Shown here piece by piece: positions 6,021-30,606 of a DNA stretch of 36,482 nucleotides. Where the stretch lies: IMG/VR virus record IMGVR_UViG_3300035180_003391, positions 1 through 36,482 of that record. One strand, given 5' to 3'. Made by a program: the position numbers and the translations under genes. How positions within the stretch are numbered: the first letter of the stretch is position 1; each line of letters begins with the position of its first letter. The DNA is from a virus. Below the pieces are notes generated by a model. That model made no database searches and had not been told where the DNA came from. It saw only the letters and a list, made by a program, of their open reading frames with translations.

Positions 6021-6051
6021 GGTCTCTCTCCTTCTTCCTTGCTCGGGTGGT

Positions 6052-11581: not shown

Positions 11582-11587
11582 GGAGTC

Positions 11588-12076: not shown

Positions 12077-12077
12077 C

Positions 12078-14042: not shown

Positions 14043-15883
14043 CCCTGATAGAGCGGGCCCTTGTAGCTGCCCTGGTTCGGCCCCTGCTGATCGAACTCCC
14101 GCTTCGGCACGATGATGTCCGGGCGGGGGATGACGATCATGGACGCGAGGAAACAGTACAGGATGGCGTGGAACGCATCATCCGGTCGGTCCGGTCGGTG
14201 GTTGTACTGAATCATCCGCAGCGTGTTGTTGTACTCGCTGTAGATGTTCAGCAGGTCCTGTGCGAACGGCTCCCGGAACTCCTCGAAGCGAGGGAACTCG
14301 ATCTGTTTTCGCTTGATGGCGGCAAAGATGTCGCTCATCACCTCAGTCCGGTGAACGATCCAGCGCTGAAGCTGGGGGTTCATGAAGACCTTCTTCTTTG
14401 CCCGGCCCGCGTACTGGAAGCGCTGCACTCGAGCCTGCCCGAACTCACGAAGCAGAACGTTGTTCGTAGCGAAGCCACCGCCGTAGTCCGACCCGATGAT
14501 GCGCACGTTGAAGGCCCGGAAGATGGCCGTCAGCTTCTTCACCTGAATCTGCGGATCAGTGTCCTCCCCAGTGAACCGATGGATCCAGAAGATACGAAAC
14601 TTCGATCCCTCGTAGTACCCAAGGCAAGCGACGGAGTAGCTGTTCTCTCCGGTGCCATGGTCTAGGCCTGCGAAGATCTGATGACCCGTCAGCTTCTTGC
14701 GGGTCCGCTCGAGCACATCTGGGTGCATCGTGATGTCTGGGTTGCAGCACTCCTTCACCTGCCCGAGGGTGAGAGGACGCATGCCCGAGTCGTACGAGAT
14801 GCCGAGGACCTCGTTGTAGAACTTGTCTCGAGGGTATCGGCTGTAGTCGAGCATGATCTCGTCCCACGACCGCCAGGGCACCATGAGCTGGGGAATGCGG
14901 TAGCTCTCAAAGATGCCGTCCTTCACCATGTTCGCCCACTGGGCGTCCTTGTGACTGGCGTCGATGGGCTTGCCGCACTTCTCACAAATGAGGCCACGCC
15001 GCCCCATGTTCTTCTCGCCGAGGACGTTCCAGTAACGCCCTCCTTCCCCACCATGCGCATCGCAGGGCACGACCCACTCCCCCTGCGTGGACATCGGGCG
15101 GCCGTCCTTGGAGACGCCAGACCGGTAGTACTCGAGGGAGTTGTCCAGGCCCTTGGGCGTGCCGGAGTAGATGTACCGCTTCAGTGCTTCCGGTGCGTGG
15201 GAGGTGCACTGCTCGATGACCGGGATGTTGTCGGAGAGGATGTCCTGGAGCTCGTCGATCGCGAGGCACATCGCAGGGATGCCTCGGGTACGGTCGGCGT
15301 TGAGGAAGGCGTACCGCAGGGTGATCTTGGCCCGGTTGACGAACTGCTTCTCGAAAATGTTCTGCGAGAGCATGCTCGTCGTGTACGCCCTCAGAACATC
15401 GCTCGTCTCGATGGGCTCCTTGATGCGGTCGGCGCTGAACACCTTCGTCTGCGTCGCTGACGGCGAGACGTAGAGCGTCTTGTACGCCGTGATGATGCAC
15501 GAGTAGGTGAGGATGATGTTCCCGAGCAGGGTGCTCTTTTCGACCTGTCGGCCGCAGAACAGGAGCATGCGCTTGGCGGGAGTGTTGTACGGACGGCGCA
15601 TGTGGCGCCTGCCCTCGAAGCTGAAGTTCTCGTAGCCGAGCCCATCCTGCCTGGGCATCCGGAACGCGAACTCTGTGAACTGGCTCGGGTAGACCGACGG
15701 CAGCTTGGTCAGCCTCTTGGCCTGCGCATCGATGTCGATGAAGTCCTCGAAAGCCTCGGGCTCCGGCATCCAGGGCACGCCGTTGTGCATCCGGGCGAGC
15801 TCTTCGTCCGTGAACTCCACCGGCTCGAGGTCTTCCTCCGCTGTCGGTTCGCCCTTCTCAATGTCTGTCTGGTGAGAGAACAT
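14039..15883 (-). CDS. terL: Terminase large subunit (614 aa)
   Basis: This is the DNA-packaging motor and nuclease. The ATPase domain has Walker A GRQVEKST (111-118), Walker B CLAIDE (D210/E211) and the YSGTP coupling motif. The RNase H-like nuclease domain shows Asp-bearing motifs AGLDHGTG (near 405), IIGSDYGG (near 463) and RPDDAFH (near 567). A Cys/His insertion between the domains (VPCDAH then CEKCGKPI) resembles a zinc-binding hairpin known in other large terminases. The Walker A has Glu where Gly is commonest. The start at 15883 lacks a strong ribosome site; ATG at 15790 is an alternative. K-x-A motifs are absent, in contrast to the virion proteins nearby. Confidence 0.95.
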   Translation of the reverse strand: MFSHQTDIEKGEPTAEEDLEPVEFTDEELARMHNGVPWMPEPEAFEDFIDIDAQAKRLTKLPSVYPSQFTEFAFRMPRQDGLGYENFSFEGRRHMRRPYNTPAKRMLLFCGRQVEKSTLLGNIILTYSCIITAYKTLYVSPSATQTKVFSADRIKEPIETSDVLRAYTTSMLSQNIFEKQFVNRAKITLRYAFLNADRTRGIPAMCLAIDELQDILSDNIPVIEQCTSHAPEALKRYIYSGTPKGLDNSLEYYRSGVSKDGRPMSTQGEWVVPCDAHGGEGGRYWNVLGEKNMGRRGLICEKCGKPIDASHKDAQWANMVKDGIFESYRIPQLMVPWRSWDEIMLDYSRYPRDKFYNEVLGISYDSGMRPLTLGQVKECCNPDITMHPDVLERTRKKLTGHQIFAGLDHGTGENSYSVACLGYYEGSKFRIFWIHRFTGEDTDPQIQVKKLTAIFRAFNVRIIGSDYGGGFATNNVLLREFGQARVQRFQYAGRAKKKVFMNPQLQRWIVHRTEVMSDIFAAIKRKQIEFPRFEEFREPFAQDLLNIYSEYNNTLRMIQYNHRPDRPDDAFHAILYCFLASMIVIPRPDIIVPKREFDQQGPNQGSYKGPLYQG

Positions 15884-15889: not shown

Positions 15890-16168
15890 ATGTTCCCGCC
15901 TGCAAACACCGACAACGTAAACAAATGGCTGGAGGACATGCTCTCTTCACTGACGCGTGCCGGTTTGATTGCGAACCCAGAGGTCGTGGTGGACAAGATC
16001 GAGGACGGCAAGCTCTCGGTCCTCATCCGGCTGCACGACTCCATCCCGAAGTCTGGCTGGTCTCCGCTCCGAAAGTACCTGGAGCAGTACGGCAAGGCCT
16101 CGGGATGGCGGGTGGAGAAGATCCGTCAGCCTCGAGGGGCCTTGCTGTTCTTGGCCTCGAGGGCCTGA
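15890..16168 (+). CDS. Small unknown protein on the opposite strand (92 aa)
   Basis: The ATG at 15890 lies only 6 bases from the divergent terminase start. The ribosome site is weak (GGTGAGAGAAC at a loose distance). The protein looks like a small alpha/beta domain: a helix with WLEDMLSSLTRAGL, a KIEDGKLSVLIRLHD strand pair, and a basic end. Its 3' end overlaps the convergent 138-aa gene by 43 bases. If it is not real, 15884-16125 would be a non-coding gap ahead of terL on the minus strand. Confidence 0.5.
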   Translation: MFPPANTDNVNKWLEDMLSSLTRAGLIANPEVVVDKIEDGKLSVLIRLHDSIPKSGWSPLRKYLEQYGKASGWRVEKIRQPRGALLFLASRA

Positions 16169-16542
16169 TCGAGCTCGGAGTAGAAGCGCTTGATGCGCTC
16201 CTCCGGCAGACCCTCATTGGCGAAGCCGTTGCAGCGAAGCCACCAGGACTCGACCTCCTGGGTCCAGGCGGCCTTCAGTCGGGGGAAGCCGGCCTGAAAG
16301 ACGGCCTGAGCGACGTCCGACATCGTGTTCGGAAAGACATCGTCCCAGTACCCCTTCGCGGGGCACTCGGCAGTCTTGAAGAAATGAAAGACGATGTCTT
16401 CGTCCTCGAAGGCATGCTCCGCACGGAACGTCGTGTAGCTCTCGTCCTTGATGAACTGAAGGGGCTGAACCCCCTGGTCATTCTGACTCGAAAGCAGGCT
16501 CGTCGCCTCCGTCTCCCCCATCGAAGTCGGCTGGAAGTTCAT
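16126..16542 (-). CDS. Unknown protein upstream of terminase (138 aa)
   Basis: The ATG at 16542 has GGAG about 7 bases upstream and overlaps the end of the previous gene by 65 bases in another frame. The protein is acidic with an aromatic-rich core (DEDIVFHFFKTAEC, YWDDVFPN, ESWWLRCNGF) and a helical C-terminus. It is the last minus-strand gene before terL. A terminase small subunit or packaging partner is possible from position only; no DNA-binding motif was seen. Confidence 0.75.
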   Translation of the reverse strand: MNFQPTSMGETEATSLLSSQNDQGVQPLQFIKDESYTTFRAEHAFEDEDIVFHFFKTAECPAKGYWDDVFPNTMSDVAQAVFQAGFPRLKAAWTQEVESWWLRCNGFANEGLPEERIKRFYSELDQALEAKNSKAPRG

Positions 16543-17455
16543 TAGTCGTCTCCATCTTCACAACTTCGGCAGTGTGCTTGCCTTGGCTTAGTACGTGGAT
16601 ACTGGGCAGCTCTGCATCATCGGTGCGCATCGCGATGGTTGCAAGCTCATCTCGCAGCTGGCCCTGCGGGTCCGCCATCTCCTTGGAGACGTTGGCCATC
16701 TTCTCCATCACCCCGGCGTAGTCCAAGGCCTTCTTGCTGTCGCCCGGACCGTCAGTCCACATCGATTGAAGGGCGCGAGCTGCGGACAAGGCCTTGGCCT
16801 GTTCCATCATCCGCTTCAGATCAATCTGTGCTGGGAAGACTCCGATGCGAGTCTGCGTCAGCATCGCACCCACCGGAGAGAACGGGAGCTCCGCCGCCGT
16901 CTTGCGGGGGTCCTTGTAGTAGGCGTTCTTCATGGCACTGTGCTGTGCCTTGATCTCCTTGTCCGGGTGGTCGGCCAGTCGATCGAGCCTGAACTTCAGG
17001 ATGCCCCGCAGCTCGCTGGAGTCCAGCAAGTCAACGTTCCAGAAGAAGTCCCGATACCGATCGATCGTGGCCACCGCGCACGGGAACCGTTGGTACTTGG
17101 TCACGGCGTGAGAGATGGCCGCACTCGGGGCCCCAGAAATGATGGCCGACTCAACGTACTCCTTCACTCGGGGAGTCTCGAGAATGTCCCACGCACGAAG
17201 GGCGGGAGCATCGGGCCGGTACATCCAGTACAGGCCCGACATCCGCAACCACTGCTGCGAAGGATCGTGCTTTCGGTTGAACGGCTGGAACGGGGAGGGA
17301 GGCTTGAGCTTCGCGCGCAGCCGCTCGACGTACCAGTTGCCCAAGAAGTCGAGGTGAGCAAACTGAAGGATCTCTTCGATCTGCTCGTTCGTGTACTTCT
17401 TCGGATGGGTGCAGAGGTACTTGATGTACAGCTCCGCAGGAGATCGACGAATCAT
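16478..17455 (-). CDS. Unknown protein in the structural/packaging block (325 aa)
   Basis: I chose the ATG at 17455, beginning MIRRSPAELYIKYLCTHPKK, just after the previous stop (17467). The longer frame to 17593 lies inside the upstream gene and has shadow-like composition. The N-terminal 200 residues are helical with many aromatic and basic residues. The C-terminus is acidic and Gly/Asp-rich. The KYTNEQIEEILQFAHLDFLG stretch could be a helix-turn-helix-like segment. Being two genes before terL, it might be a terminase small subunit or assembly factor, but that is only a guess. Confidence 0.75.
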   Translation of the reverse strand: MIRRSPAELYIKYLCTHPKKYTNEQIEEILQFAHLDFLGNWYVERLRAKLKPPSPFQPFNRKHDPSQQWLRMSGLYWMYRPDAPALRAWDILETPRVKEYVESAIISGAPSAAISHAVTKYQRFPCAVATIDRYRDFFWNVDLLDSSELRGILKFRLDRLADHPDKEIKAQHSAMKNAYYKDPRKTAAELPFSPVGAMLTQTRIGVFPAQIDLKRMMEQAKALSAARALQSMWTDGPGDSKKALDYAGVMEKMANVSKEMADPQGQLRDELATIAMRTDDAELPSIHVLSQGKHTAEVVKMETTNELPADFDGGDGGDEPAFESE

Positions 17456-17466
17456 GACGACACGCC

Positions 17467-19593
17467 CTAGCTCTTCTGGAAGGCCAGAATCTTCAGGCCG
17501 TCGACGACTTCCTCGAGCGACTTGATGCACTTCTCGAGGGGCGAGGTCGGGATGTCCGACATGCCCATGCGTGCTGCCACGAGGAGCTCGCAAAGACGGC
17601 CCTGCGTCTGATCGAACTGCGGCAGGTAGCTCACGAAGGTCATGATGTTCTCGGGGTTGATGAACCCGACCGAGAGCACCGTGTCGACGGCGAGCGGGTC
17701 CGGAACGAACGCCGCCTCCTTGATGAGAGAACGCCGCAGGTCCGGGAAGGAGGCCAGCTTCATGGCCGCCAAACTCGAGGCCTCACGCTTCTGCTCCGCG
17801 GCCGTCTTGATGGTACGGCCGATGCGGATCTGAACCGGAGAATGGCTCACCAGGGCCTGCCCGATCTTCTCCGAGGCGTACTGGAGGTTCGTCCCCAGAC
17901 CCGCCAACAGGAAGAGCGTGTCGTCGAACGAGAGGAAGTTACGTTCGTCCGATGCGAGCTTGTTGAGGGGGATGCCCTCGAGCGAGAAGCTGTTGTTCCC
18001 GCCAGCCCGCAGCGTGACCGAGGCGTAGGCCCTCGAGGCTTCCTTGGCCTGACCCCACTCCTCCGGGCGATCGACGAGGACGGTCTCTTCCCCGCCGAGC
18101 GGGAGCCACTTGAAGTCCTCGGGGATGATGCAGGTGCCCTCGACTTCGGTCGGGTGCTGGATGTTCGGCTGCACCTCGATGAAGGTCTCACGCCCGTCGT
18201 AGGTCTCGACGTGCATCTTGTGCGAGCCGCCCTCGGAGTACCCGCCCTTGATGGTCATCGGGACCATCGCGTCCACGGCTCCGTTCCCAAGCTGACGAAC
18301 GAACATGCCGTGGCCAGTGGTCGGCCCGAAGACAAGACCTGAGTCCTTGCCCACCAGCTCTCCAGCCACCGACTCCTGGATGGCAGAAGCGGAACCATTG
18401 GTGAATGCGGCGATGGGCAGGGAGGTCCCATCGAGGTCGATGAGGTTCGGGAAGACATAGCCGACGAGCTCCTGCCCCTTTTCGTCCTTCACCCGGTACA
18501 CGCCGAAGCTCTCCACGATCTGCGGGCCTGCCTCGGGGCTCTCCTCGTCTTCCTTGACGTCGGCGCCATCGGCGAGAGTGACCGAGCCTGCCGCATCTGC
18601 AGCGAGTGCGATCTTCTCTCCGAACATACGGACCACGCCGCCACGGTCCATCTCCTTGGAGCTTGGCTCCCAGTACTGCACGCTGGCGATCTTGACCTGA
18701 TAGCCGCTGGCGAGCTTGATGACCTGCAGCACGTCGGGTCGCACGAGTCCCTTGATGGCAGCGGCCGTCTTGCTCAGATCGACGGGCTCGTATGCAGCGA
18801 GCTTGGCCAAGGACGGGCCAGTGAAGACGCGTGCCTGGACGTAGCGTGCCTGCAGGCCCGGCTCCTCGAAAGCCGCGGCGAACTTCACGTGGTCTTCGAT
18901 GTTGATCGACGGAAGGATGGCCGCGAGCACCGAGCCGGTCTTCCACTTCGGGACCATCTTGTTGATGGTCGATCCCGTGGTCTTCAGCGCAGTGCTGTTG
19001 GGCACGCCCACGCTTCCGGCCTTCTCGGCGAGGAACTCCTCGAGCGCCGAGCTCTCCTTGCCCATGCCGACACTCATGCCGGCGCCGCCACCCCCACCGC
19101 CACCACCGTAGTTCTGGCGGTACGGCGGGTAGAGCTGCCCGACCATCGACATGTCGCCGGGGGTCCTCGAGGTGACGTCGAACGCCTGCGGCCGGAAGAG
19201 GGCCTGGCGCATGCGCCCCTCGTTGAGCGGCAGCATCTTCGAGTCCGCCGTGACGATGACGTCGAACGGATAGAGCTTGCGGTCCTTGATGACGACCGGG
19301 ATGCGCACGGTCTGAACACCAACAGCGTCCTGAGCTCCCTGAGCTGCGTTGCTCTGGAGCTCGGACTTGTTCTTCACCTCGACGTGGCCGAAGCCGTAGC
19401 CCCGCTCCGCGTCGACGCGGTCCATCACCACCTCGGGCTCGAAGTCACTGATAAAAGGAACTTGCTTGTACAACTCCTGCATGATTTCGTTCGACCAGGA
19501 GTTCGCGTCCTCAGGAAGAGTCACCTCCGCTGCGTTCTTCTCGAAAACGATGGCGGCAGGCTCGACGTAAAGGGGCTGCATGAGGGTCTCCAT
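17467..19593 (-). CDS. Large unknown virion-type protein (708 aa)
   Basis: ATG at 19593 overlaps the previous stop (TGATG); a TTG one codon earlier is a weaker alternative. The N-terminal 130 residues include beta-rich parts (VRIPVVIKDRKLYPFDVIV). A run of eight glycines follows at about 163-170. The rest is a long mixed domain dense in K-[L/I/T]-A motifs: AKLAA, SKTAA, IKLAS, VKIAS, NKLAS, IKTAA, MKLAS. No catalytic motif was recognised. It lies between tail-side genes (spike and the 216-aa gene) and packaging genes. Its size and position suggest a virion structural or inner-body protein. Confidence 0.8.
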   Translation of the reverse strand: METLMQPLYVEPAAIVFEKNAAEVTLPEDANSWSNEIMQELYKQVPFISDFEPEVVMDRVDAERGYGFGHVEVKNKSELQSNAAQGAQDAVGVQTVRIPVVIKDRKLYPFDVIVTADSKMLPLNEGRMRQALFRPQAFDVTSRTPGDMSMVGQLYPPYRQNYGGGGGGGGAGMSVGMGKESSALEEFLAEKAGSVGVPNSTALKTTGSTINKMVPKWKTGSVLAAILPSINIEDHVKFAAAFEEPGLQARYVQARVFTGPSLAKLAAYEPVDLSKTAAAIKGLVRPDVLQVIKLASGYQVKIASVQYWEPSSKEMDRGGVVRMFGEKIALAADAAGSVTLADGADVKEDEESPEAGPQIVESFGVYRVKDEKGQELVGYVFPNLIDLDGTSLPIAAFTNGSASAIQESVAGELVGKDSGLVFGPTTGHGMFVRQLGNGAVDAMVPMTIKGGYSEGGSHKMHVETYDGRETFIEVQPNIQHPTEVEGTCIIPEDFKWLPLGGEETVLVDRPEEWGQAKEASRAYASVTLRAGGNNSFSLEGIPLNKLASDERNFLSFDDTLFLLAGLGTNLQYASEKIGQALVSHSPVQIRIGRTIKTAAEQKREASSLAAMKLASFPDLRRSLIKEAAFVPDPLAVDTVLSVGFINPENIMTFVSYLPQFDQTQGRLCELLVAARMGMSDIPTSPLEKCIKSLEEVVDGLKILAFQKS
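19084..19107 (-). repeat. GGN simple repeat encoding an oligo-glycine linker
   Basis: Eight consecutive Gly codons using GGT, GGC and GGG separate the N-terminal part of the 708-aa protein from its large C-terminal part. It reads as a flexible interdomain linker. Confidence 0.6.
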
Positions 19594-20243
19594 CAAGTCC
19601 GAAGGATAGCTTGGATGGCCGTCCAGGTAGAAGGCACCTTCGTCAGGATGACCAGTCCGTAGACGTGTTCACCCGGAAGAATGACCGCAGGACCGTAGCT
19701 CAAAGGCACGGAGAAACTACCGGAGATGTTGCCACCAACGACGTTCATCGGCACATCCTCAAACGAAAGCAAGAAGGCATCTCCTGCAGACAAATGCTCT
19801 GCGAGGGACCCGGCAAACGACGCAGCGGGGATCTTGGAGTTGAGCAGCGCCTGAATGAGGGCGAGGAGATTCCCGAGCTGCACTCCGATGGAAGCTGCCA
19901 CCTTCGCGAGAGCAGAGACCTGCGTGGTGGCCTGAATCGATGCAGAGGGAATGCTGCCCAGGGCCAGAGCTCGAATGAGGTTGGCCTCGAGCTGCTTGAT
20001 GCTGATGAGCGCCTGTTGGAACGCCGCCAACGGATTCACGATGTTGAGACTGATGTGCGCAGAGGCGCTGATGGCTGCGTTCATCTGCAACTGCAAGTTG
20101 TCCCTCAACGCACCGATGCCGAGCGGACCGAACAAGGACTGGTCCACATTCGCCAACAATGGCTTGAGCACCAACAGCGACCCCGCGCATGCGGTGTTGA
20201 TGTCGACGAGGCCACCAGCGAAGACGACGCCGTTGTAGGCCAT
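19593..20243 (-). CDS. Unknown low-charge helical protein (216 aa), probable tail or baseplate component
   Basis: ATG at 20243 follows the spike stop with no gap (TAGATG), so translation is probably coupled. The ribosome site is weak. The protein has very few charged residues over residues 1-150 and long Ala/Leu/Ile/Ser helices (LGNLLALIQALLNSK), then a beta-rich C-terminal domain. It is not a classical multi-span membrane protein, since polar Asn/Gln/Ser are interspersed. Immediate coupling to the spike gene suggests a baseplate, hub or ejected component. Confidence 0.75.
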   Translation of the reverse strand: MAYNGVVFAGGLVDINTACAGSLLVLKPLLANVDQSLFGPLGIGALRDNLQLQMNAAISASAHISLNIVNPLAAFQQALISIKQLEANLIRALALGSIPSASIQATTQVSALAKVAASIGVQLGNLLALIQALLNSKIPAASFAGSLAEHLSAGDAFLLSFEDVPMNVVGGNISGSFSVPLSYGPAVILPGEHVYGLVILTKVPSTWTAIQAILRT

Positions 20244-21455
20244 CTACGTGAGCACCGTGGGCTCGCCTGCGGTGACCGACAGGGTGACGGGGAAGGGAAC
20301 CGGAGCTCCCGGCATGGGCATCGGCGTGTAGGGCAAGAAGCCCTCCACCAGGCAGCCAAGGTAGGCCACCGGCCTGGAACCAGGGCCGAGCTTCACGACG
20401 CCTCCCTTGATGTGCGTGTGCGAGCCTCCGTCGATGATGGCCCCCGCTTCCGCCGTCATGGTGAGGGTCTTGCCCGAGATGAACTCCATCTCTTCAGTGG
20501 ACCGCACACGCAGACGCTTCTTCGTCGACAATGACATGCTGCCGTTGCAGCGAAGGAACGTGCCACCAGCTCGGTCGAAGAAGAACCGGAAGACGGTCTT
20601 GGCTCGGATGTCCGCAGGGTCCGGATGGCCAGTCTCCGGATTGAAGCTCTCCGGGGCGACCACCACTTCCGCCACGATGTAGCTCGGGTCTGTGCCAAGA
20701 CCGAGGGCATCGATGTCCTCTTGGTTCCCGCGCGCCTTGTCCGTGGGCTCCGCGATGGGGTCAGAGACCTTGCCAACCTTCACTCGAATGTCCGCCGACT
20801 TGTTGTCCGCGAAGACCCTGAAGCTGTGCGTGTACTCCGTGGGGAGGTGAGCAAGCCCTGCTCCCTCCTGCATGCTCCACAGGATCGAACCGCCCATATT
20901 GTGGTGGGCGTAGTTGTTCGAGATGTCCATGATGAGGTGATTGAGCGGGATGTAGAGCCGCTGTGCGAGCTCCGAGCATCCGATCTGCACCACCCCGCCA
21001 CGATGGAGGATGACGAAGTTGTCGTCCCGCGTGCGCATCCAGATGTCACCGGGCTTAGCCTGCGGTCTGCCACCAGCAAAGGAGGCACCGCTCGAGCTCG
21101 AACCTGACGAGCTCTTGCTGGTCGTACCCTGTAGCGCATCCGGCGCCGCCAGGTCCACGTTCTCGACGGGCATGAGGAACGCGCCCACGAAGGGCGCGCT
21201 CGAGTCCGACGGGATGCACACCACGCACTTCGCCCCGACCTCGGGGAAGATGGAGATGCCTTCCCCATTCGAGTAGTGCATGTACGGGCTGGAGACCTGG
21301 ATGTCGAAGTATCGCTTGCGGTCAAAGTCCGCAGCCACGTCGACCGTCCAGTTCACCAGATTGACGTTGACGATCTTCCCCAGCACCCACTCGGCGGGAA
21401 CGTTGCCCTCCATGTAGCTCATGGAGGTACGGAATCTGGTTTCTCCACCGGGCAT
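20244..21455 (-). CDS. Baseplate spike protein (gpV/gp5-like, 403 aa)
   Basis: Residues about 22-95 look like the OB-fold of phage spike proteins (EWVLGKIVNVNLVNWTVDV, then FPEVGAKCVVCIPSDSS). A Ser/Gly linker (about 108-122) leads to a beta-rich region with RTRDDNFVILHRGGVVQIG. The C-terminus has SHTHIKGGVVKLGPGS, typical of needle-like triple-stranded beta spikes. The ATG overlaps the RNAP stop codon (TAATG). A spike implies a cell-puncturing baseplate, usual for contractile-tailed and some siphovirus-type phages. The fold is inferred from pattern. Confidence 0.75.
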   Translation of the reverse strand: MPGGETRFRTSMSYMEGNVPAEWVLGKIVNVNLVNWTVDVAADFDRKRYFDIQVSSPYMHYSNGEGISIFPEVGAKCVVCIPSDSSAPFVGAFLMPVENVDLAAPDALQGTTSKSSSGSSSSGASFAGGRPQAKPGDIWMRTRDDNFVILHRGGVVQIGCSELAQRLYIPLNHLIMDISNNYAHHNMGGSILWSMQEGAGLAHLPTEYTHSFRVFADNKSADIRVKVGKVSDPIAEPTDKARGNQEDIDALGLGTDPSYIVAEVVVAPESFNPETGHPDPADIRAKTVFRFFFDRAGGTFLRCNGSMSLSTKKRLRVRSTEEMEFISGKTLTMTAEAGAIIDGGSHTHIKGGVVKLGPGSRPVAYLGCLVEGFLPYTPMPMPGAPVPFPVTLSVTAGEPTVLT

Positions 21456-24400
21456 TAGTAGTTGGCCTTGGGCACGTTCTTCAAGTGCCCGTACCCGGGC
21501 AGGTTGGACTTCTCGCTGGTGACGCCGAACTCAGCGCCGTACACCATGCCAGGAATCGGATGAGTGCCGTGCAGGTGCGAGATGGCCGAGATGGCGGCAG
21601 CGTCGGAGATCGTGGTCTTCAACTTCTGATGCTGCAGCTTGGCCATCCAATCTTCCTGCAACGACAGCGGCAGCATGTTCACACCCTTGAGCGTAGGCGT
21701 GTGCTCGATGGGACGCAGCCCCTGTTTCACCAGATCGCTGTTCTTCTTCTGGATCACCGAGAGCGGCTGGAACTCACCACGGAGAATACCTTCTGCGTCA
21801 CCAGGATGAACGATCTTGGTGAGGTTCGACATCGCCTTCACGACCGTCTCGATGTGTCGGCGCTTGATGCCCTCATCACGATACACGTCGTAAATCTCAG
21901 ATGCGAGGTGGTTCTGCACCTTGTCGATGCTGCCCGTCGCTGCGTACAAGTCATGCGGGTTGATGACTGTACGCGTGGGGTCGGACAGCGAGGACCCTGC
22001 GTCCACGTGCATGCCAACGTGCAGACCTCCCCAGTCACTCAAGCCGAGCGGCTTGTGCAGGGCGTTGCCCGCCGTGTCCTTGCCGATGAAGTGACGGAAC
22101 CCACCGACCGACACGTTCACGCCCGTTGACGTGGGATCAATCTTGTCGATCTTCCCGGACCGCATTGCCAGCGTTGCCGCATTCGCGATCTTCTTCGGCA
22201 GCATGGTGAGCTGCTCGAGCATCGAAAACTTGTCGACGGCCTTGCCGCCTCCTTGCTCCGCCACGCCGCCCGTGTGGAAGGCCTTCATGGGAAGCTGCAC
22301 CGCACGCTCGCCGATGGTCTGTGTGGCGATGATGCCGATGTTCGTGCCCATCGGGTGGAAGTCCCCGTTGGCCGACAGCCCCACGCACTTCTGACACAGG
22401 CCGTGATCGTGCTCGCACTTCAGCGGGCTGCGCACCAACATCTTGGCGTTCTTGTCCGCTGCTCGAACCTTCCCAACGACGTCAGGAGTGAGCGTCGAAC
22501 CTGCAGCCAAATGGATGTGCCCGGACTTGTAGTCCTGCGCGAGGACTCGGTCGTGGATGTCCTTCTCGCCCACCCCGAGGAGGATGCCTCGAGTGGTGCC
22601 GCAGTCCGGGCTGGCCACCATCATGTCCATCGTGCTGGCCATGAGCAGCTTCGAGAGAGCTCCAGGCCCGCTGGTCTCCTGAACCTTCATGACGGTGCCT
22701 CGACGAGCTCCGTGCATCTGCGTCCAGTAGCTCGCGAGGTCCAAGCCTTCTGAGTACGACCTGTCCACAGGCGTGGCGATGGTGCGGTTGGCAGAGTCCT
22801 GCACGAGCATCGGCGCAATGACCATCTGCTTGTACTGGTTCCACTCCGGCTTCATCCCAGCCTTGTGCATCATGTAGAGATTGGAAGGGTTGTCCTTCAT
22901 CTTCTCATCATGCTTCTCGTGCATCTTCTGGTCGGCCTTCATGTAGACGTCGACCACCCGACGGTGCTGTTCCGCCGGAGTGAGGGTCAACTTCTTGATG
23001 GCCACCACCTCACCGTGCGCCTTGTCGAGAACTTCGTCTCGCATCTTCGCATCGGGTATGAAGTCCTTGAGTGACAGCGTGTGCGTGCCGATGGGGACGA
23101 ACACGTTCTTCTTCGGATCTGTCAGGTTCGCCGCGGTGTTGCCCGCCATGGGGATGGGAATGATGCCGAACGACGCGTGGTTGCCGAGGTCCTTCAGCTT
23201 GTTGATGGACTTGTCGAACTCCTCCTTGTGGTTCTTGCCGAGCGTGGAGGCCAAGACGCTCAAGCCCTTCTTGTCGAGCGGCGTCTCGATGTCGTGCAGG
23301 ATGTGACTCTGCATGGCCTCGGGCATCGTCGTCGACAGAAGCACGCGCCCTGCAGTGGTCTTCTTTCCGTTGAGCGAGACCACGTCCGCATAGTGCAGGC
23401 TGCCGGACTTCACATCGCTCAGGATCTCTCCAGGATTCTTGAACGACTTGCCGGTGTCCTTGCCCTTGAGCGACAGCTTGTAGACGCCAAGCGCCGACTC
23501 GAGCGACGGCATGTAGGCCACGTTCCCAGACGACTCCGCAAAGATGTTCTGCGAAGGCTTCATCTTGTGAACCTCCGCCACCGCCTCCTTCGAGATGGGA
23601 ACGAAGACGCTCATCGTGTCGCCGTCGAAGTCGGCATTGAAGCCACCGACGACGAGCGGATGAATCTTGATGGCGTTGCCTTCCACGATCTTCGCGTTGA
23701 ATCCCTGGATGCCGTACTTGTGCAGCACCGGGTCACGCTTGAGCATGACCGGCCGCTCCTCCATCACCTTCTCGAGAGCTCGATGCACGTGAGGATTGTC
23801 GGTCTTCAGGAGCAACTTCTGAGCATCGAGTGGCGTAGGAGCAGCGCCCATGTCCTGCAGCTTCTTCACGATGAAGGGGCGGAACAGATCGATGGCGTGG
23901 TGCTTCGGCAGGCCCATCTCGTCGAGGCCGAGAGCGGGCTCGGGCACGATGGTCGAACGCATCGTGAGGTCCTGCCGCTTCTGGGCGAGGACGTTCTGGA
24001 AGAAGCCGGTCTTCGGGCTGGCGCCTGAGAGCTGGTGCAGCAAACCCTTGTGCTCCGCCTTGCTGTACGGAACACCATAGCCCGTGAGGGCCTTCATCCC
24101 ATCGTAGAGGTTCCGACGGAGCTCCTTCTTGCCGTCGTCGGTGAGGTTCCTCGAGAGAATGGGATCCTTGAGCTGCTCGTTGACCTGCGCGAAGTCCGAG
24201 TAGAGCTGGTTGATGTCGGCGTACTTCACGTTGCCGTCTGCCATCGGCGACGCAGGACGCATCGACGGAGGCAGCACAGGCACGTGGTGCAGCACGTAGG
24301 CTTCGCTCGGCTTCATGTCGAGCTTGTCGAGAGCCTGCAGGTACTTGACCTTCTTCAGCGTCTTGTCGATCTCTGAAGGCTTCGCTTTCTTCAGCAGCTC

Positions 24401-27400
24401 CGACGACTTCGCCAAGTCCTTCTTGACGTCGATGTTCTGCAAGAGCTGCTTGATGGCAGCGCCTCCAGTGATCGCACCCCTGCCCACGTCAGCGAGCTGA
24501 CCGTTCGAGTGGATGCCCTTCTCGCCGGAGACGAGGGACATGTAGTCCTTCCCCGAGAGCCCGGTCAGCGCCATGATGGGCCGCTCGAACACAGGGTTCG
24601 GGATGGGCTCTGCAAGATCGATGCGGGACCACTTCTGCCCGCCGTGTCCGCCCGTGAGTTTCTCGTCGAAGAGACCCCCGGTGCGGGCCTTGAGCTCGCC
24701 GGTCTTCTTGTCGATCTTGGCCTCGAGGCGCTCCCCTGCCTTCGGGAGAGCTCGAGCCTCCGTCATCGCCAGGATGTGCCTGTCGGTGAGCGGGGACACC
24801 ATGAACTGGTTGCCCTGCTTCTCGATGTTGACGCCCGAGCCCTTGAGCAGGTCCTCGAACTTCTTGAAGGCGAAGGTGGACTTCGGCGTGGGCAGCGGGG
24901 AGCCCGTCTGGATGGCCTTCCACACCTCACCGTGCTGCGAGGGCCACCGCTTCGACTCCGCCTTCGAGGCATCGTCCGGCCCTTCCCCCTTCCACGTCTG
25001 CATCTCCCGCAGGTTCGCCTTCGCCCCATGGGCGAGCATGGCGTAGAGGCCGAGGGAGCCGATGCGCTGCCCGTGCTTCGGCTGCAGGTTGATGTCGTAG
25101 GTGGCCGGATTGTGCGGAGCAGGCATGCCGCTCGAGACAGCAACCTTCTTGTCGACCTGGTGCACGAGCTTGATGATGTGCTGGAAGCCGACAAGGGTCT
25201 GCCCGAGGGACTGCCCGGTGCCGGGATCGTGGAGCTCCTCTGTGTCGGAGATGCCGTGCTTCTTGAGCTCATCCTGCACGTGATGAATGACGTCGGCATC
25301 CTTGGTGAAGGACGGCACCACGATGGGCTTCCCCGTCTTGAGGGCCACCTTCGACAAGGCCGTCTCGAGCACCTGCCCGACGTTCATTCGGCCAGGGATG
25401 CCGGACGGGTTGAGCGCCACCTCGATGTGCTTACCGTCCTTCGTGTGGGGCATCTCCTTGTCCGGCAGGACCATCGTGATGATGCCCTTGTTGCCGTACC
25501 GGCCCGCCATCTTGTCGCCGACCTGCATCGGCTCGATGGTCTTCACGTGGATGTGGACGCCGTCCTTGTTGTGCGCGATGCCGACGACCTCGCCCTCGGT
25601 CTCCCCATCCCACTTGAGGGAGCGGTCCGTGTGAGCTCCGGTCAGCGACTTCCGGATGGCCGCTTCTCCCGTACGGTCCTTCAACGAGAAGGGCTTCACC
25701 GCCAAGATGAGCGGGTCTCCGGGCTTCACCTTCGAGCCCATCTTCGGCAGACCGTCGTCACCGATGTGAACGATCTGGTCCTTGCTGTAGATGCCCGGCT
25801 GGTGAATCAGGAAGGAGCTCTTCGAGAGCTTCACCCCGCCGTCCGTTGCGAGGCTCGGCTTGTAGAGGTGAACGCTCGAGAGCTTCCGAGCAGCACTGTC
25901 GCTGATGACAACGCCGTCCTCGAAGTTGTAGCCCTTGAAGGGCATGTACGCGACACGCAGGTTGGTGCCGAGGGCGATGGACCCATTCTTCGAGAAGTTC
26001 GTGTCGGCGACGAGCTGCCCAGACTTGACCTTGTCGCCCACCTTCACGACAGGGGTCGAGTGCAGCACGCTCTTCGCATCGTTGAGCGGATAGTTGTTGT
26101 AGATCTGCACCTCGTGCGTGATGCCCGAGTCTCCATGGATGACGATGCCGTCGTCCTTCACCTGCTTCACGGTGCCGGCAATCGGGGTCGAGTGCGATGC
26201 GTACGAACCCACGACCTCCTCGAAGCTGCGCATCCCGTGCTTGTCCACGCCCGTCGATACCTGAACGAGCGGCGCCTCACGGTGCAGCAACGAGATGGAC
26301 TGCTCCATGTGGCGAGTGGCCATTGAGGCGCGGTTGCCGTTGGAGTTGCCCAGATAAGGGATGAGGTTCGACGTCATGTCGAAAAGCTGACTCGGGTGGC
26401 GCATTGCGTACTGCGCCTCAGACAACTTCCCCTCTACGATGTCGTTCCCGTGCCCCGCCATCTTCACCGTGGCGCTGATGGCGTGCGGCTTGCCATCCTT
26501 CCACGTGATCTGGTCCGGCAACACCACCTTCGACGTGAAGAACGTGCCCGGAGGAACATCCTCCGTGTGCCCCGTCTTCAGGTTGTACAGAGGGATCATG
26601 GGCTGGTTGCCCACCTTCTTCACGCCGACAGGAAGGCGCAGACTCACGCCTGTCTTGCTGCCTTCGGGCGTGTTGATGGGGTCGAGATACCCGAGATGGC
26701 TCGGGTTCACGAACTTCGCCTCCTGCATGATCTGCTGCTCGGACTTGATGCCGCCCGGACCCATGATCGTCGTCTGCTGCGACTTGGCGATCATCTCGAT
26801 GGGGTTGATCTGCGTCGCAGGATTGCAGGCACTGTTCTTGTTGAACGCCTGCTTGACCGGCTCGTTGAACGTGTCGAACTTGATGATGTCGTGGATGTTC
26901 TTCGCGGTGTTGAGCTTACGCATCGACTTGAGGTTGATGGACTTCGCGGCCCCCCTCATCTTGTCGTAGACGTAGTCACCGCCCGAGCGCAGGTCCTTGA
27001 AGATGAGAGAATCACGGTCGTCCTCGGGGTGACCGGCCTGCACCTGCATCAGCTTCTTCGCGGCGAGGAGCATGGCCTCACCGTTGACGTGATCGAGAGG
27101 CTTGCCGAGAGTGATTGCTGTCGCCTCGGGCTTCATCTTCGACGCTTGCATCGTCTCGATGAAGTGCTTCTCGGCTTCGGCCTTGGATGGCGCCTCTACA
27201 CGCTTCTCGGTCTTGTAGAACTTCTCGAGGGTACCGGCCAAGCCACGAGCGGCCTTGTTCGCCTCGAGCACTTCCTTACCGAGATGCTTCTCGATGCTGT
27301 CGTCGTCCACGCCGAGTGACTTCAGCAGCGGGTAGACCGGCAGCTTCGCCTTGTTGTAATCAACCCTGAGCTGCTTGGTACCCGGATCGAAGACCATGTC

Positions 27401-27826
27401 GAAGGCGCTCTTGCCCACGACATTGAAGCGAGTCTCGAGCTCACCGTTCTGCCGCCGTCTCGTGTACGCGCCAGGCTTGAGCTGCCACTGGTTGTCGAAC
27501 TGATACTCGCGCCCGTTGAGGATGTACGAGTACCTCTGCGTCGTCTTCGGCAGCTCGGCGAGACGAATCTTCCGCTGGTCCACCACGGTGCCCGTGGCGT
27601 TGTCGACGAGGCGCATGTGCCCGTAGATGGGCACCGCAAAGCTCTCTCCTGCGAGCTTCGCTTTGTGCTGACCGCGGATGTCATCCGGGTGCAGGTCGTC
27701 CTTGGCCTCGACCTTATCGAGATGAAGGGTCTGGAACTTCCCCTTCATAGGAAAGTGGGACTGGATACCCTCGAGCGTCCGGTCGCGGAAGTGGGCGAAC
27801 GCTTCCTTCGTGTCGAGGTGTGACAT
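21455..27826 (-). CDS. rpoBC: Single-chain DNA-directed RNA polymerase, beta and beta-prime fused (2123 aa)
   Basis: The beta part (1 to about 1002) has the LNGREYQFDNQWQLKPGAY segment, a rifampicin-pocket-like region from 341 (NPIEMIAKSQQ, MGPGGIKSEQ, INTPEGSKTG), RVAYMPFKGYNFEDG, and VGDKMAGRYGNKG (769-781, catalytic lysines). It ends at a KGSGVNIE clamp segment. Within about ten residues beta-prime begins (SPLTDRHILAM, GLFDEKLTGG). The catalytic Mg2+ loop NADFDGD is at 1397-1403, the bridge-helix/trigger-loop region at about 1675-1750 (WTQMHGARRG), and the second zinc site is kept (CEHDHGLCQKC). The N-terminal beta-prime zinc finger is missing. At 2123 aa it is far shorter than the E. coli pair (about 2750 in total). 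GGAG lies 6-7 bases before the ATG. No alpha, omega or sigma gene was seen. It is coupled to the spike gene and so probably late-expressed. Confidence 0.97.
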   Translation of the reverse strand: MSHLDTKEAFAHFRDRTLEGIQSHFPMKGKFQTLHLDKVEAKDDLHPDDIRGQHKAKLAGESFAVPIYGHMRLVDNATGTVVDQRKIRLAELPKTTQRYSYILNGREYQFDNQWQLKPGAYTRRRQNGELETRFNVVGKSAFDMVFDPGTKQLRVDYNKAKLPVYPLLKSLGVDDDSIEKHLGKEVLEANKAARGLAGTLEKFYKTEKRVEAPSKAEAEKHFIETMQASKMKPEATAITLGKPLDHVNGEAMLLAAKKLMQVQAGHPEDDRDSLIFKDLRSGGDYVYDKMRGAAKSINLKSMRKLNTAKNIHDIIKFDTFNEPVKQAFNKNSACNPATQINPIEMIAKSQQTTIMGPGGIKSEQQIMQEAKFVNPSHLGYLDPINTPEGSKTGVSLRLPVGVKKVGNQPMIPLYNLKTGHTEDVPPGTFFTSKVVLPDQITWKDGKPHAISATVKMAGHGNDIVEGKLSEAQYAMRHPSQLFDMTSNLIPYLGNSNGNRASMATRHMEQSISLLHREAPLVQVSTGVDKHGMRSFEEVVGSYASHSTPIAGTVKQVKDDGIVIHGDSGITHEVQIYNNYPLNDAKSVLHSTPVVKVGDKVKSGQLVADTNFSKNGSIALGTNLRVAYMPFKGYNFEDGVVISDSAARKLSSVHLYKPSLATDGGVKLSKSSFLIHQPGIYSKDQIVHIGDDGLPKMGSKVKPGDPLILAVKPFSLKDRTGEAAIRKSLTGAHTDRSLKWDGETEGEVVGIAHNKDGVHIHVKTIEPMQVGDKMAGRYGNKGIITMVLPDKEMPHTKDGKHIEVALNPSGIPGRMNVGQVLETALSKVALKTGKPIVVPSFTKDADVIHHVQDELKKHGISDTEELHDPGTGQSLGQTLVGFQHIIKLVHQVDKKVAVSSGMPAPHNPATYDINLQPKHGQRIGSLGLYAMLAHGAKANLREMQTWKGEGPDDASKAESKRWPSQHGEVWKAIQTGSPLPTPKSTFAFKKFEDLLKGSGVNIEKQGNQFMVSPLTDRHILAMTEARALPKAGERLEAKIDKKTGELKARTGGLFDEKLTGGHGGQKWSRIDLAEPIPNPVFERPIMALTGLSGKDYMSLVSGEKGIHSNGQLADVGRGAITGGAAIKQLLQNIDVKKDLAKSSELLKKAKPSEIDKTLKKVKYLQALDKLDMKPSEAYVLHHVPVLPPSMRPASPMADGNVKYADINQLYSDFAQVNEQLKDPILSRNLTDDGKKELRRNLYDGMKALTGYGVPYSKAEHKGLLHQLSGASPKTGFFQNVLAQKRQDLTMRSTIVPEPALGLDEMGLPKHHAIDLFRPFIVKKLQDMGAAPTPLDAQKLLLKTDNPHVHRALEKVMEERPVMLKRDPVLHKYGIQGFNAKIVEGNAIKIHPLVVGGFNADFDGDTMSVFVPISKEAVAEVHKMKPSQNIFAESSGNVAYMPSLESALGVYKLSLKGKDTGKSFKNPGEILSDVKSGSLHYADVVSLNGKKTTAGRVLLSTTMPEAMQSHILHDIETPLDKKGLSVLASTLGKNHKEEFDKSINKLKDLGNHASFGIIPIPMAGNTAANLTDPKKNVFVPIGTHTLSLKDFIPDAKMRDEVLDKAHGEVVAIKKLTLTPAEQHRRVVDVYMKADQKMHEKHDEKMKDNPSNLYMMHKAGMKPEWNQYKQMVIAPMLVQDSANRTIATPVDRSYSEGLDLASYWTQMHGARRGTVMKVQETSGPGALSKLLMASTMDMMVASPDCGTTRGILLGVGEKDIHDRVLAQDYKSGHIHLAAGSTLTPDVVGKVRAADKNAKMLVRSPLKCEHDHGLCQKCVGLSANGDFHPMGTNIGIIATQTIGERAVQLPMKAFHTGGVAEQGGGKAVDKFSMLEQLTMLPKKIANAATLAMRSGKIDKIDPTSTGVNVSVGGFRHFIGKDTAGNALHKPLGLSDWGGLHVGMHVDAGSSLSDPTRTVINPHDLYAATGSIDKVQNHLASEIYDVYRDEGIKRRHIETVVKAMSNLTKIVHPGDAEGILRGEFQPLSVIQKKNSDLVKQGLRPIEHTPTLKGVNMLPLSLQEDWMAKLQHQKLKTTISDAAAISAISHLHGTHPIPGMVYGAEFGVTSEKSNLPGYGHLKNVPKANY

Positions 27827-27932
27827 CGATTCTCCGCGTTGAGGTTACTCCACGGCCCGGAAACGCTGCAAGACGAACGATAGAGCGGGCATAAGAGTTT
27901 TGAGGGGCGATTCACGCCCTAAGGAGAAGCAC
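27827..27932. promoter_or_regulatory. Divergent intergenic region between RNAP gene and plus-strand operon
   Basis: These 106 bases separate two divergent starts, so promoters for both directions are expected here or just inside the flanking genes. No convincing bacterial -35/-10 pair was found. A CATAAG and a GATAGA are the nearest AT-rich elements on the plus strand. The promoter may be phage-specific. Confidence 0.45.
27904..27920 (+). promoter_or_regulatory. Short hairpin directly upstream of a ribosome site
   Basis: GGGCG-ATTCA-CGCCC forms a 5-bp stem with an extra G-U pair at the base. It ends just before AAGGAG (27921-27926), which lies six bases from the ATG at 27933. It could shield or stabilise the leader of the plus-strand operon. 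Its role is inference. Confidence 0.4.
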
Positions 27933-28001
27933 ATGCACGCAGACAACAAGGGCCAGGAGTATCAGGACAAGGTCGACGAGATGCTCGGAAGGAAGAAGTG
28001 A
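27933..28001 (+). CDS. Leader-sized small ORF (22 aa)
   Basis: AAGGAG six bases before ATG gives one of the best ribosome sites in the window, opening a 22-codon frame MHADNKGQEYQDKVDEMLGR followed by two Lys and TGA. The peptide is charged and helical. It is the first frame of the plus-strand operon. It may be a real micro-protein or a leader peptide that couples translation into the next frame, which starts 3 bases after its stop. Confidence 0.5.
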   Translation: MHADNKGQEYQDKVDEMLGRKK

Positions 28002-28004: not shown

Positions 28005-28157
28005 GTGTGGCCCATCTTCTGGGGCGGCGTTGCTGCTGGGGTCTTCAACGGGCTGCTCACATGGGCCGGCAACAGGATGAGAGAACCCGAGGAGGAGGAA
28101 GATGATCATCAACCCGTACCTCCATCGGGAGGCATTAGTTACATACGGTGGCACTAG
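28005..28157 (+). CDS. Small single-span membrane protein candidate (50 aa), GTG start
   Basis: GTG at 28005 lies 3 bases after the preceding stop and has AGGAAG upstream at a loose distance. Residues 2-22 (WPIFWGGVAAGVFNGLLTWAG) form one hydrophobic segment, followed by an acidic EPEEEEDD patch. The frame overlaps the next gene by 56 bases, including its ribosome site GGAGGAGGAAG. A holin-like or membrane-anchor role is possible. The overlap also allows translational control of the next gene. Confidence 0.45.
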   Translation: MWPIFWGGVAAGVFNGLLTWAGNRMREPEEEEDDHQPVPPSGGISYIRWH

Positions 28158-28692
28158 GATTCTTCAGCAGGACTTCGGCCTCATCGGCGTTGTCCTGCAG
28201 GATCCGAACAATCCCTACAGACCCTGGACCATCTCCGCGCTGTATGCCCCCGTCTCCGCTAGAGCGGCGGGAGGCATCAGGGCGAAGCTCGTAGACCAAA
28301 AGGACTACATCACGTTCATCAACCAGATGGACTTGGAGGTTCTTCTCGAACTGGGTCGGCCGGGAACCCTGTGCAAATGGGCCAACAAGAAGTACGCGGC
28401 ACCTGGCGAGAACACGTTCTACGGATTCTGCGCTGACGATGATGACCTCATCGATGACCTGTACGATCGAGAACTCCTGCTGCGTGGTTCGAGCCTTACG
28501 GGGATCTTGGACCAGAGCAATGAAGTTCTACGACGTGTCCACCTCGAGGACTACGTTGATGTGGAGGAGTACCACATCATGATGTGGGATGCAGACCCGG
28601 AGACGGGCATCTGCCCAGACGTGCGCATGGAGACGATCGAGAAACGTTGGTCCCGTGTTGAGCGAAAGAAGGCTCCCTGGGAGGACGTCTGA
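28102..28692 (+). CDS. Unknown protein (196 aa), first long gene of the MoxR/VWA operon
   Basis: The ATG at 28102 is preceded by GGAGGAGGAAG, a very strong ribosome site. The protein is a soluble alpha/beta type with an acidic middle (CADDDDLIDDLYDREL) and a C-terminal basic/aromatic tail ending APWEDV. No domain is recognised. Its stop overlaps the next ATG (TGATG), so it is a cotranscribed partner of the Cys-rich and MoxR proteins. Confidence 0.8.
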   Translation: MIINPYLHREALVTYGGTRILQQDFGLIGVVLQDPNNPYRPWTISALYAPVSARAAGGIRAKLVDQKDYITFINQMDLEVLLELGRPGTLCKWANKKYAAPGENTFYGFCADDDDLIDDLYDRELLLRGSSLTGILDQSNEVLRRVHLEDYVDVEEYHIMMWDADPETGICPDVRMETIEKRWSRVERKKAPWEDV

Positions 28693-29237
28693 TGATCTCA
28701 CTGGAAGAGAGTCCGGACCCGGATGCGGACGACCCTCTGTACTTCGAGACCAAACACATGTGCCCCTGCTGCCAGGAGTACCTGGTCTACACCGACGAGG
28801 GGTTCCTCGTTGAAGTCACGGAGGCCGCACAAGACCTGGGGAAACTCCTCACCCAGCCCTTGAAAGGCGAGGATGGGGACTACTCGTTCGAGCCCTACAT
28901 CATGCACCTCATGTGCTGGGAGGAGGTACTCGAGCAGATGCGCGAAGCCACGCAGGACACCCCTTCGGTTGAATGCGTGGACGGCATCATCTACTGCAAA
29001 AGCTGCCTGAGCACGATCGGCAGCTTCGAGCCTTTCGTGGCTGCGTACTTCGGAGAGATCCGGGTCTCCACAAGAAACCCGAACCTCGTGAAGGACGACA
29101 AGTTCGAGAAGGACCCGGGCATGGATGCGTACTGCCTGGCCTGCATTGTTCATGTCTTCGAGGAACACTTCGAGGACTGGGAAGACTTGTTCGCCGAGTT
29201 CAATATCGGCGTGGAGGATGACGAAGATGAGTCTTGA
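28692..29237 (+). CDS. Unknown acidic Cys-rich protein (181 aa), possible zinc-binding
   Basis: Cysteines occur as C24-x-C26-C27, C75, C95, C102-x2-C105 and C148-x2-C151, suggesting one or two zinc sites. The rest is very acidic, especially the C-terminus (VEDDEDES). The start overlaps the previous stop and the end overlaps the MoxR start by 11 bases. It may be an adaptor or substrate of the MoxR/VWA pair. No named family was recognised. Confidence 0.8.
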   Translation: MISLEESPDPDADDPLYFETKHMCPCCQEYLVYTDEGFLVEVTEAAQDLGKLLTQPLKGEDGDYSFEPYIMHLMCWEEVLEQMREATQDTPSVECVDGIIYCKSCLSTIGSFEPFVAAYFGEIRVSTRNPNLVKDDKFEKDPGMDAYCLACIVHVFEEHFEDWEDLFAEFNIGVEDDEDES

Positions 29238-30606
29238 GCAGATCCTGTCCACGGCATTCCTGGTCCCCATGGGGGACCCGACGAACCCCAAGTGCATCTG
29301 GGGGTTGAACACGATGCTGTGGGGAGAGCCCGGCATCGGTAAGTCGGACCGGGTCGAAGCTGCTGCAGGGATGTGCGGATTGCCCGCCCGTACGACGTAC
29401 ATCCCGACCTGCCAGCCCGAGGATGCCTCGGGCTCTCCGTTCCAGAACACCTCGAAGCTGGCGGCGATGCTCGACAGCATCATCTTCACCCTCGACGAAT
29501 ACCTCGAGGACAAAGAGGGAGGGCTCGAGCTCCCCCTGCAGCAGGGCATCTTCGAGAAGTGGATGTCGGGCCTGACGGGCCAGTACAAGCAGAAGCCCGT
29601 CGGCCTGTTCCACCGCATCATCAAGGGCATGGCGAAGGTCTCCCGTCGCTACGGCGGGAGCTTCAGTCGCATCGAGCCCATGCTGCCTGGCATCAGCGAC
29701 CTGATGCTCGATGGACAGGGCGTCTGGTTCCTCGACGAGATCTCGAGCGCACGTCCTGCGGTTCAGGGAGGCTTCCTCGGGGCCACCCTGGGCCGCAGCG
29801 TCGGCGGACAGAAGCTCCCTCCCGGCGTCCGCATCGTCGCCGCAGGCAACCCCTCCGAGTCCGCAGCGGGCGGCTGGGACATGGAGCCGCCCATGGCCAA
29901 CCGCTGGTGCCACTGGGAGACCAAAGTGCCCTCGGACGACGAGTGGTGTGAATGGCTGAACAACGAAGACGGCACCCCCTCGGAGAGCATCGAGGATGGG
30001 CAGCGCAAGGTCATGGCGGGCTGGAACACGCACTGGCCGATCATCCGGGGGCTCGCCACCGGCTACCGCAATGCGAAGGCTCACCCGCTGCACGTGCTGC
30101 CGGCAGAAGGCACGAAAGAACGTGGACGTGCTTGGTGCTCCCCCCGCACGTTCAGCTGGGCGCTGCGTGCTTGGGCCACCTGCCGATGCCTCGGACTCGA
30201 CGACAAGTTCGCCATGCAGTTCATCGAGGGCTGCATCGGTGAAGCTGCGACTACTCCGCTCGCCGCATGGATCATCAACGCCGACATCCCAGATCCTCGG
30301 GACGTCCTGAATAACGGGTGGGCCATCGACAAGCGTCGGATCGACCGATGCGTTGCCGTGTACACCTCCGTCAACAACTACGTCCTCACCCGCAAGGACC
30401 CCGAGGAGAAGAAGGCCCTCGCCATAAAGGCTTGGCGGCGACTCGAAGAGAGCATGCACGCCAACCTCCTCGACATCACCGCACAGTATGCGAAGGCTCT
30501 CGTCATCGCCGGCCTCGACCGACAGGGAGGAGCTGACCTCGCAGACGCTTCTCGTCCCGTGATGCTGCGCCTCGTGAAGACCGGCGCCCACCAGATGCCC
30601 GTATGA
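29227..30606 (+). CDS. MoxR-type AAA+ ATPase (459 aa)
   Basis: I chose the ATG at 29227, with GGAGG about 9 bases upstream; the frame is open further back without a better start. Walker A GEPGIGKS is at 33-40, Walker B GVWFLDE at 165-171, and a sensor-1-like IVAAGNPS near 203-210, followed by PMANRW. The C-terminal 200 residues are a helical lid. MoxR ATPases typically work with a von Willebrand A partner to remodel or metallate protein complexes. Here the partner gene overlaps the stop by 4 bases. Compared with short MoxR proteins it has an insertion after Walker A (about 55-160), possibly for substrate recognition. Confidence 0.9.
   Translation: MSLEQILSTAFLVPMGDPTNPKCIWGLNTMLWGEPGIGKSDRVEAAAGMCGLPARTTYIPTCQPEDASGSPFQNTSKLAAMLDSIIFTLDEYLEDKEGGLELPLQQGIFEKWMSGLTGQYKQKPVGLFHRIIKGMAKVSRRYGGSFSRIEPMLPGISDLMLDGQGVWFLDEISSARPAVQGGFLGATLGRSVGGQKLPPGVRIVAAGNPSESAAGGWDMEPPMANRWCHWETKVPSDDEWCEWLNNEDGTPSESIEDGQRKVMAGWNTHWPIIRGLATGYRNAKAHPLHVLPAEGTKERGRAWCSPRTFSWALRAWATCRCLGLDDKFAMQFIEGCIGEAATTPLAAWIINADIPDPRDVLNNGWAIDKRRIDRCVAVYTSVNNYVLTRKDPEEKKALAIKAWRRLEESMHANLLDITAQYAKALVIAGLDRQGGADLADASRPVMLRLVKTGAHQMPV

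Follow-up and report, generated by a model that had tools for sequence, protein, structure and literature searches.

A fused, bacterial-type RNA polymerase in the virion gene block of a phage as a candidate for packaging and injection with a sigma factor

The polymerase gene and its surroundings

The window, i.e., the whole stretch of 36,482 bases that was analysed, originates from a virus record and carries on its minus strand a gene for a single-chain RNA polymerase (RNAP), which is surrounded by the following features.

3553..4056, minus strand: homolog of Arash gp233 (E 3.6e-14)
4905..6104, minus strand: major capsid protein, homolog of Arash gp226 (phrog_2522, E 9e-11; Arash gp226, E 2.1e-38)
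9416..13292, minus strand: homologs of Arash gp220, gp221 (via D69 d269) and gp222
14039..15883, minus strand: terminase large subunit (phrog_675, E 7e-46; GpA_ATPase; Arash gp1, E 2.7e-52)
16126..19596, minus strand: three conserved proteins of 709, 371 and 138 aa, probably virion proteins (order kept in 17 loci)
19593..20243, minus strand: conserved 216-aa protein of the block
20244..21455, minus strand: probable baseplate/central spike protein, 403 aa (OB fold plus beta-helix, gpV/VgrG-like; family and structure matches)
21455..27826, minus strand: fused beta-beta' RNAP, 2,123 aa (Pfam, PDB and PHROG matches)
23618..23638, minus strand: catalytic NADFDGD motif, RNAP aa 1397-1403 (from the sequence; aligns with NADFDGD of bacterial beta')
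28102..31985, plus strand: divergent unit of hypothetical genes, an ATPase (phrog_1297) and a DUF2201/VWA-like protein
32224..35550, minus strand: portal protein, homolog of Arash gp204 and of its D69 counterpart, with an in-frame intein inside (hmmsearch E 1e-102 to Arash gp204; alignment)
33304-34605, minus strand: the intein in the portal gene, 434 aa (portal aa 316-749; LAGLIDADG domain)

The beta part of the RNAP extends over ~aa 269-1000 and the beta' part over ~aa 1089-2088 of a single chain, in which the Pfam domains Rpb2_6 (E 1.5e-58), Rpb2_3, Rpb1_2 and Rpb1_5 were recognised, Rpb1 domain 1 was matched below the Pfam cut-off, and phrog_24349 and phrog_25354 were the matching PHROG families. 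Residues 1089-2088 align over ~1,000 residues with the bacterial beta' chain 7l7b_D (E 4e-101), and this alignment includes the beta' clamp-helix region (aa 1189 onward), which in cellular enzymes is the binding site of sigma region 2. Judged by its sequence, the window protein is a bacterial-type (two-barrel) RNAP; the catalytic domains of beta and beta' are united in it, NADFDGD included, and it appears to possess the sigma-binding clamp-helix region in beta'. Large proteins of a virion block can be structural, and a pseudo-enzyme or structural relic might be envisaged for this reason; the retention of NADFDGD and of all main Rpb1/Rpb2 domains and the full-length open frame in all 18 loci of RNAP relatives in IMG/VR make this scarcely credible. 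In one of these loci (L018:14210-15775), an in-frame, intein-like insert of 522 aa is located in the RNAP immediately after NADFDGD; its first residues are QQLGQVV, its last VVLSN, and a T follows.

The first-pass annotation had assigned the RNAP to a block of virion genes, and this assignment is supported by the portal gene upstream and the genes for the spike, the large terminase subunit and the capsid protein downstream. The order portal-RNAP-gp220-gp221-gp222-capsid-gp233 is common to the window and Salmonella phage Arash, and it is mostly retained in Vibrio phage D69. Since the order has been kept despite an RNAP identity of ~31% between the window and these two phages (Arash: 31% over aa 18-1494), the RNAP has belonged to the virion block for a long time. 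A homologous RNAP lies after the portal gene also in Arash (Gp206/Gp216) and in the Vibrio phages D69, D148 and D181, but in Arash and D69 it is encoded by two genes separated by other ORFs, the break falling inside beta', whereas the window RNAP is one chain. The beta' splits with intervening ORFs were located at 24506-25145 in L002 and 24500-29271 in L003 (Vibrio and Salmonella phages), and the match in D148 and D181 is underlain by a homing endonuclease.

Some further observations concern the block itself. The portal intein begins with CVSPETLVET and ends with VATHN, the next residue being T, and it is also present in the relative G002 and absent from the relative G001, Arash and D69. In the Arash gp222 homolog (9416-11581, minus strand), aa 324-453 form a Pfam InPase domain (E 7.9e-40), and the protein also matches several phage families, among them those of minor head proteins and of virion structural proteins; a 927-aa protein of the block (292-3075, minus strand) has an N-terminal ferritin-like domain (E 4.6e-15). 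No useful family matches were found for the 709-, 371-, 138- and 216-aa block proteins. The ORF at 13398-14033 was rejected as a gene, with no relatives and a poor coding signal.

The gene after the RNAP had previously been called a spike, which is likely right. A strong single family match for the 403-aa protein is lacking, and a direct scan of the collection with it returned no relatives; homologs were seen beside the RNAP in other loci. The baseplate assembly family phrog_9992 was matched by 7 of 14 of these homologs (best E 1.6e-4), and 5 of 14 had weak matches to the Phage_base_V OB domain (best E 0.014). The best matches of the predicted structure, a moderate model with a mean pLDDT of 62, were 7aef_q (E 4.7e-4), the R2 pyocin protein 4s37 and P2 gpV (3qr8). 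The features of gpV and VgrG, an N-terminal OB fold and a C-terminal beta-helix, are tentatively indicated by weak family matches and a moderate model whose closest structures are spikes, and the protein is likely a credible spike of the contractile-injection type.

The RNAP-spike junction and promoter-like elements

The regulatory signals considered in this section are located at both ends of the RNAP gene.

21453..21457, minus strand: TAATG, one base common to the RNAP stop and the spike start (from the sequence)
27842..27871, minus strand: promoter-like element TTGCAG-N18-TAACCT pointing toward the RNAP, whose ATG is 15 nt away
27866..27901, plus strand: divergent class A promoter-like element GCAAG-N15-GGCATAAG (PWM score 24.4; conserved in relatives)

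The overlap reported earlier is real: on the minus strand, the TAA of the RNAP (21457-21455) and the ATG of the spike (21455-21453) share one base, and the two ORFs extend over 21455-27826 and 20244-21455. The conclusion that had been drawn from it, namely, that translation of the RNAP is coupled to that of the spike and that the RNAP is hence a late, packaged protein, is not supported by the overlap. Coupling would run from the RNAP to the spike, because the RNAP is the upstream gene, heads the transcription unit behind 275 nt of divergent intergenic DNA (27827-28101) and has its own promoter-like site, which is conserved. Moreover, the one-base overlap (TAATG or TGATG) was found in 9 of the 18 readable junctions of relatives (7 of 14 non-redundant ones), the remaining junctions having gaps of +2, +3, +9 or +21 nt. 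Within the block, another 1-nt overlap (3553-4056/4056-4301) and three 4-nt overlaps (4298/4301, 9416/9419 and 19593/19596) are present. As evidence of timing the overlap was therefore rejected, being frequent in the block and missing in half of the relatives.

One-base overlaps permit stop-start re-initiation. The TAATG junction may accordingly do no more than keep the start of the spike within the message of the RNAP, where ribosomes may re-initiate. TAATG could also be the key regulatory feature of the locus, translational coupling setting the stoichiometry of RNAP to spike, and such re-initiation together with the adjacency of RNAP and spike in all readable junctions of relatives would agree with this proposal; it is nevertheless improbable, given that half of the relatives do without the overlap and that in Arash and D69, unlike the window, the gene after the RNAP does not encode this spike. 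The stretches of Arash and D69 that were searched contained no homolog of the spike, and a strict sigma-70 scan around the junction yielded nothing above chance.

Upstream of the RNAP, the pattern TTGCNN-N18-TANNYT occurs in 7 of 14 non-redundant relatives, compared with 0.03 in shuffles. It was not picked up by the strict sigma-70 scan around the RNAP, which detected nothing above chance, and in the relatives of the window the element could be a host-type promoter that is active at any time. The divergent class A element, which belongs to a phage-specific, genome-wide class, overlaps the RNAP element at the -35-like box of the latter, and this back-to-back arrangement is conserved in relatives. 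The pair of genes for the ATPase and the DUF2201/VWA-like protein (29125-31985, plus strand), which lies under the class A element, is found opposite the RNAP in nearly all relatives. In the relative G002, 22 of 33 class A core matches are intergenic, versus 9% expected, and with the class A PWM 58 sites were located in the window and two genomes together, versus 3-4 per genome shuffle.

A comparable pattern emerged in Arash, where GGTATAAG came out first among the 8-mers preceding non-structural-strand genes in a word count without a prior motif. Of 346 frequent 8-mers it shows the strongest strand skew, 30 of its 31 copies being located on the non-structural strand, most of them within ~70 bases of a gene start, and TATAAT precedes only 2 of 140 genes in the block on this strand. 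The sole copy on the structural strand (L056:11588) lies 12 bases before gp9, ahead of the sigma gene gp10, and self-control of sigma is possible. The counterpart word in D69 is GTTATAAG (13/194 vs 0/81). The structural strands of Arash and D69 have TAAAATA or TAAACTA instead; e.g., CTAAAATA with the TAAAATA part at -34 is located upstream of Arash gp216, which encodes the C-terminal part of beta' (beta'C), and D69 d262, which precedes beta'C by two genes, has TAAAATA at -32. The motif words were selected after inspection, the upstream tests in Arash and D69 giving p ~0.01 each before any correction, and it is the strand skew, along with the recurrence of the pattern in three groups, that gives the case its strength. 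Early/non-structural and structural genes carry two classes of promoter-like motifs. The phage-specific class is located on the non-structural strand and is a candidate target of the RNAP.

The sigma factor, the Arash virion and a scheme for transcription

The number of polymerases and sigma factors was assessed in 13 records, i.e., 11 IMG/VR records of 107-196 kb, Arash and D69. PF00562 had one match per record in 13 of 13, and PF04998 matched only the same gene(s), so that no second RNAP was found with either profile; the RNAP is a single chain in 11 of the 13 records, none of the IMG/VR records being certified complete. A T7-type RNAP (PF00940) was found in no record, a weak negative in that the control matched nowhere. 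A sigma of the Arash Gp10 type, shared by Arash, D69 and the relatives of the window, is present in 12 of the 13 records and missing only from the shortest, and several records contain a further sigma beside it. Sigma70_r3 was matched above the cut-off and regions 2 and 4 weakly, with additional matches to phrog_351 and to sigma factors in the PDB; by these criteria the Gp10 type is a real sigma-70-family protein with sigma regions 2-4. The Gp10 type would pair with the fused RNAP. In G001 and G002 the sigma gene is situated outside the virion block, which speaks against the packaging scheme described below.

Direct information on packaging comes from the published virion proteome of Arash, in which the RNAP Gp206 (beta plus N-terminal beta') is the top protein with 128 unique peptides and 3,516 spectra, followed in fifth place by Gp216 (beta'C) with 40 unique peptides and 1,210 spectra (PMC10585845). 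The sigma Gp10 (24/467), the SNF2-type helicase Gp217 (38/1,148), the portal protein (32/877) and the capsid protein (30/1,333; unique peptides/spectra in each case) were also detected, as were gp220-222 and gp233 (the latter in Table 2); Gp196, the second sigma of Arash, is missing from the proteome (PMC10585845). Taking spectral counts as a rough measure of quantity, Gp206, Gp216, Gp10 and Gp217 have similar densities of 2.31, 2.00, 2.00 and 2.43 spectra per residue, respectively, above that of the portal (1.51) and below that of the capsid protein (4.34).

The list comprises 116 proteins, replication enzymes included, and its authors allow for carry-over, leaving both options open (PMC10585845). 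An RNAP that is synthesized in mid or late infection and acts inside the cell as a non-virion polymerase for the structural genes, with its Arash signal due to carry-over of an abundant enzyme and the early genes read by the host RNAP with a phage sigma, would accommodate this long list, and it has precedents in the non-virion enzymes of phiKZ-type phages (PMC7598289); the phage sigma could also bind the host RNAP. We nevertheless regard this explanation as unlikely. The Arash RNAP does not look like carry-over: it ranks first by spectra with a density close to that of the capsid protein and above that of the portal, while many other enzymes in the list have just 2-5 unique peptides (PMC10585845). 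Furthermore, virion genes flank the RNAP across distant phages, and no second RNAP was found, though the host enzyme could serve. Of the earlier proposal that the RNAP is packaged, the conclusion is supported, mainly by the distant relative Arash, whose homolog was detected more than any other protein in purified virions, while the overlap argument for it has to be given up; packaging of the RNAP in the window phage would follow by analogy.

Overall, a likely course of events is that the particles carry the RNAP and sigma into the next cell, where the enzyme reads early promoters, the structural and RNAP genes being transcribed later. The single-chain, bacterial-type RNAP would be synthesized late alongside the virion proteins and then packaged, by homology together with a Gp10-type member of the sigma-70 family as its dedicated partner, and both would enter with the DNA as a holoenzyme, which in the new cell would read the phage-specific promoters (core GG-N-ATAAG) before the early/non-structural genes. 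The RNAP and structural genes would be transcribed later from the different promoter class, read either by the same polymerase after a factor switch or by the host enzyme, both of which are conceivable because one RNAP was found per genome. Since the RNAP and the matching sigma are abundant in purified particles of a cultured relative, this group of large phages probably injects its own transcription machine to switch on early genes.

An extension of this explanation would have the same fused, sigma-dependent RNAP serve the whole cycle, packaged for the early promoters and newly made and redirected to the late ones, with different sigma or accessory factors choosing the promoter. Sigma, and in Arash also the SNF2-type helicase, would be co-packaged, another factor would redirect the enzyme, and the two-polymerase scheme of phiKZ would thereby be replaced. 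One RNAP per genome alongside at least two promoter-like classes (class A; TAAAATA or TTGC-N18-TANNYT) is consistent with this possibility, as is the further sigma in several records, Arash Gp196 being missing from the virion list; the second class, however, could be read by the host RNAP, and we put the extension forward tentatively, as an idea whose chances fall a little short of even.

Comparison with known phage polymerases

The vRNAP of coliphage N4 is a T7-like enzyme with a fold unrelated to that of the window RNAP. It is a packaged and injected polymerase for early genes, as proposed here (PMC4496689). Single-chain, two-barrel RNAPs, as in the window, are known from the crAss-like phage phi14:2 (gp66) and from P23-45 (gp96), the latter being present in the virion and transcribing pre-early genes, while phi14:2 gp66 is called a virion RNAP in the title of a paper cited in the same article (PMC10770324). 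Both are very divergent from cellular RNAP, whereas the window RNAP, unlike the crAss/YonO/P23-45 type, aligns to bacterial beta and beta' (beta' with the E value given above) and is accompanied by a sigma-70-family gene. Phage-encoded, cell-like beta and beta' have also been described from metagenomics for the multimeric RNAP-encoding Caudovirales (mReC; Weinheimer and Aylward 2020, PMC7481178), in the text of which virion, sigma and synteny do not occur.

The phiKZ-type jumbo phages likewise package an RNAP related to cellular enzymes, which has its own early promoters, and they possess two RNAPs (vRNAP and nvRNAP), each assembled from four or five polypeptides, and lack a sigma (PMC7598289, PMC7824862). 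The window group differs from them by one fused RNAP with a sigma. The SNF2-type helicase packaged by Arash belongs to a class that is linked to the RNAP in the phiKZ type. In the Arash paper, the motifs, the sigma and the RNAP are not joined into a transcription scheme (PMC10585845). Arash is a cultured phage that grows on a Salmonella laboratory strain, and the idea is therefore testable now. The known multisubunit-type virion polymerases of jumbo phages are paired, consist of many chains and lack a sigma factor; if our proposal is true, a bacterial-like polymerase that consists of one chain and is packaged along with a sigma represents a simpler design, whose closeness to the cellular enzyme permits a direct comparison of promoter recognition. 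What is new here would be a variant of the packaged phage RNA polymerase that is fused and accompanied by a sigma factor.
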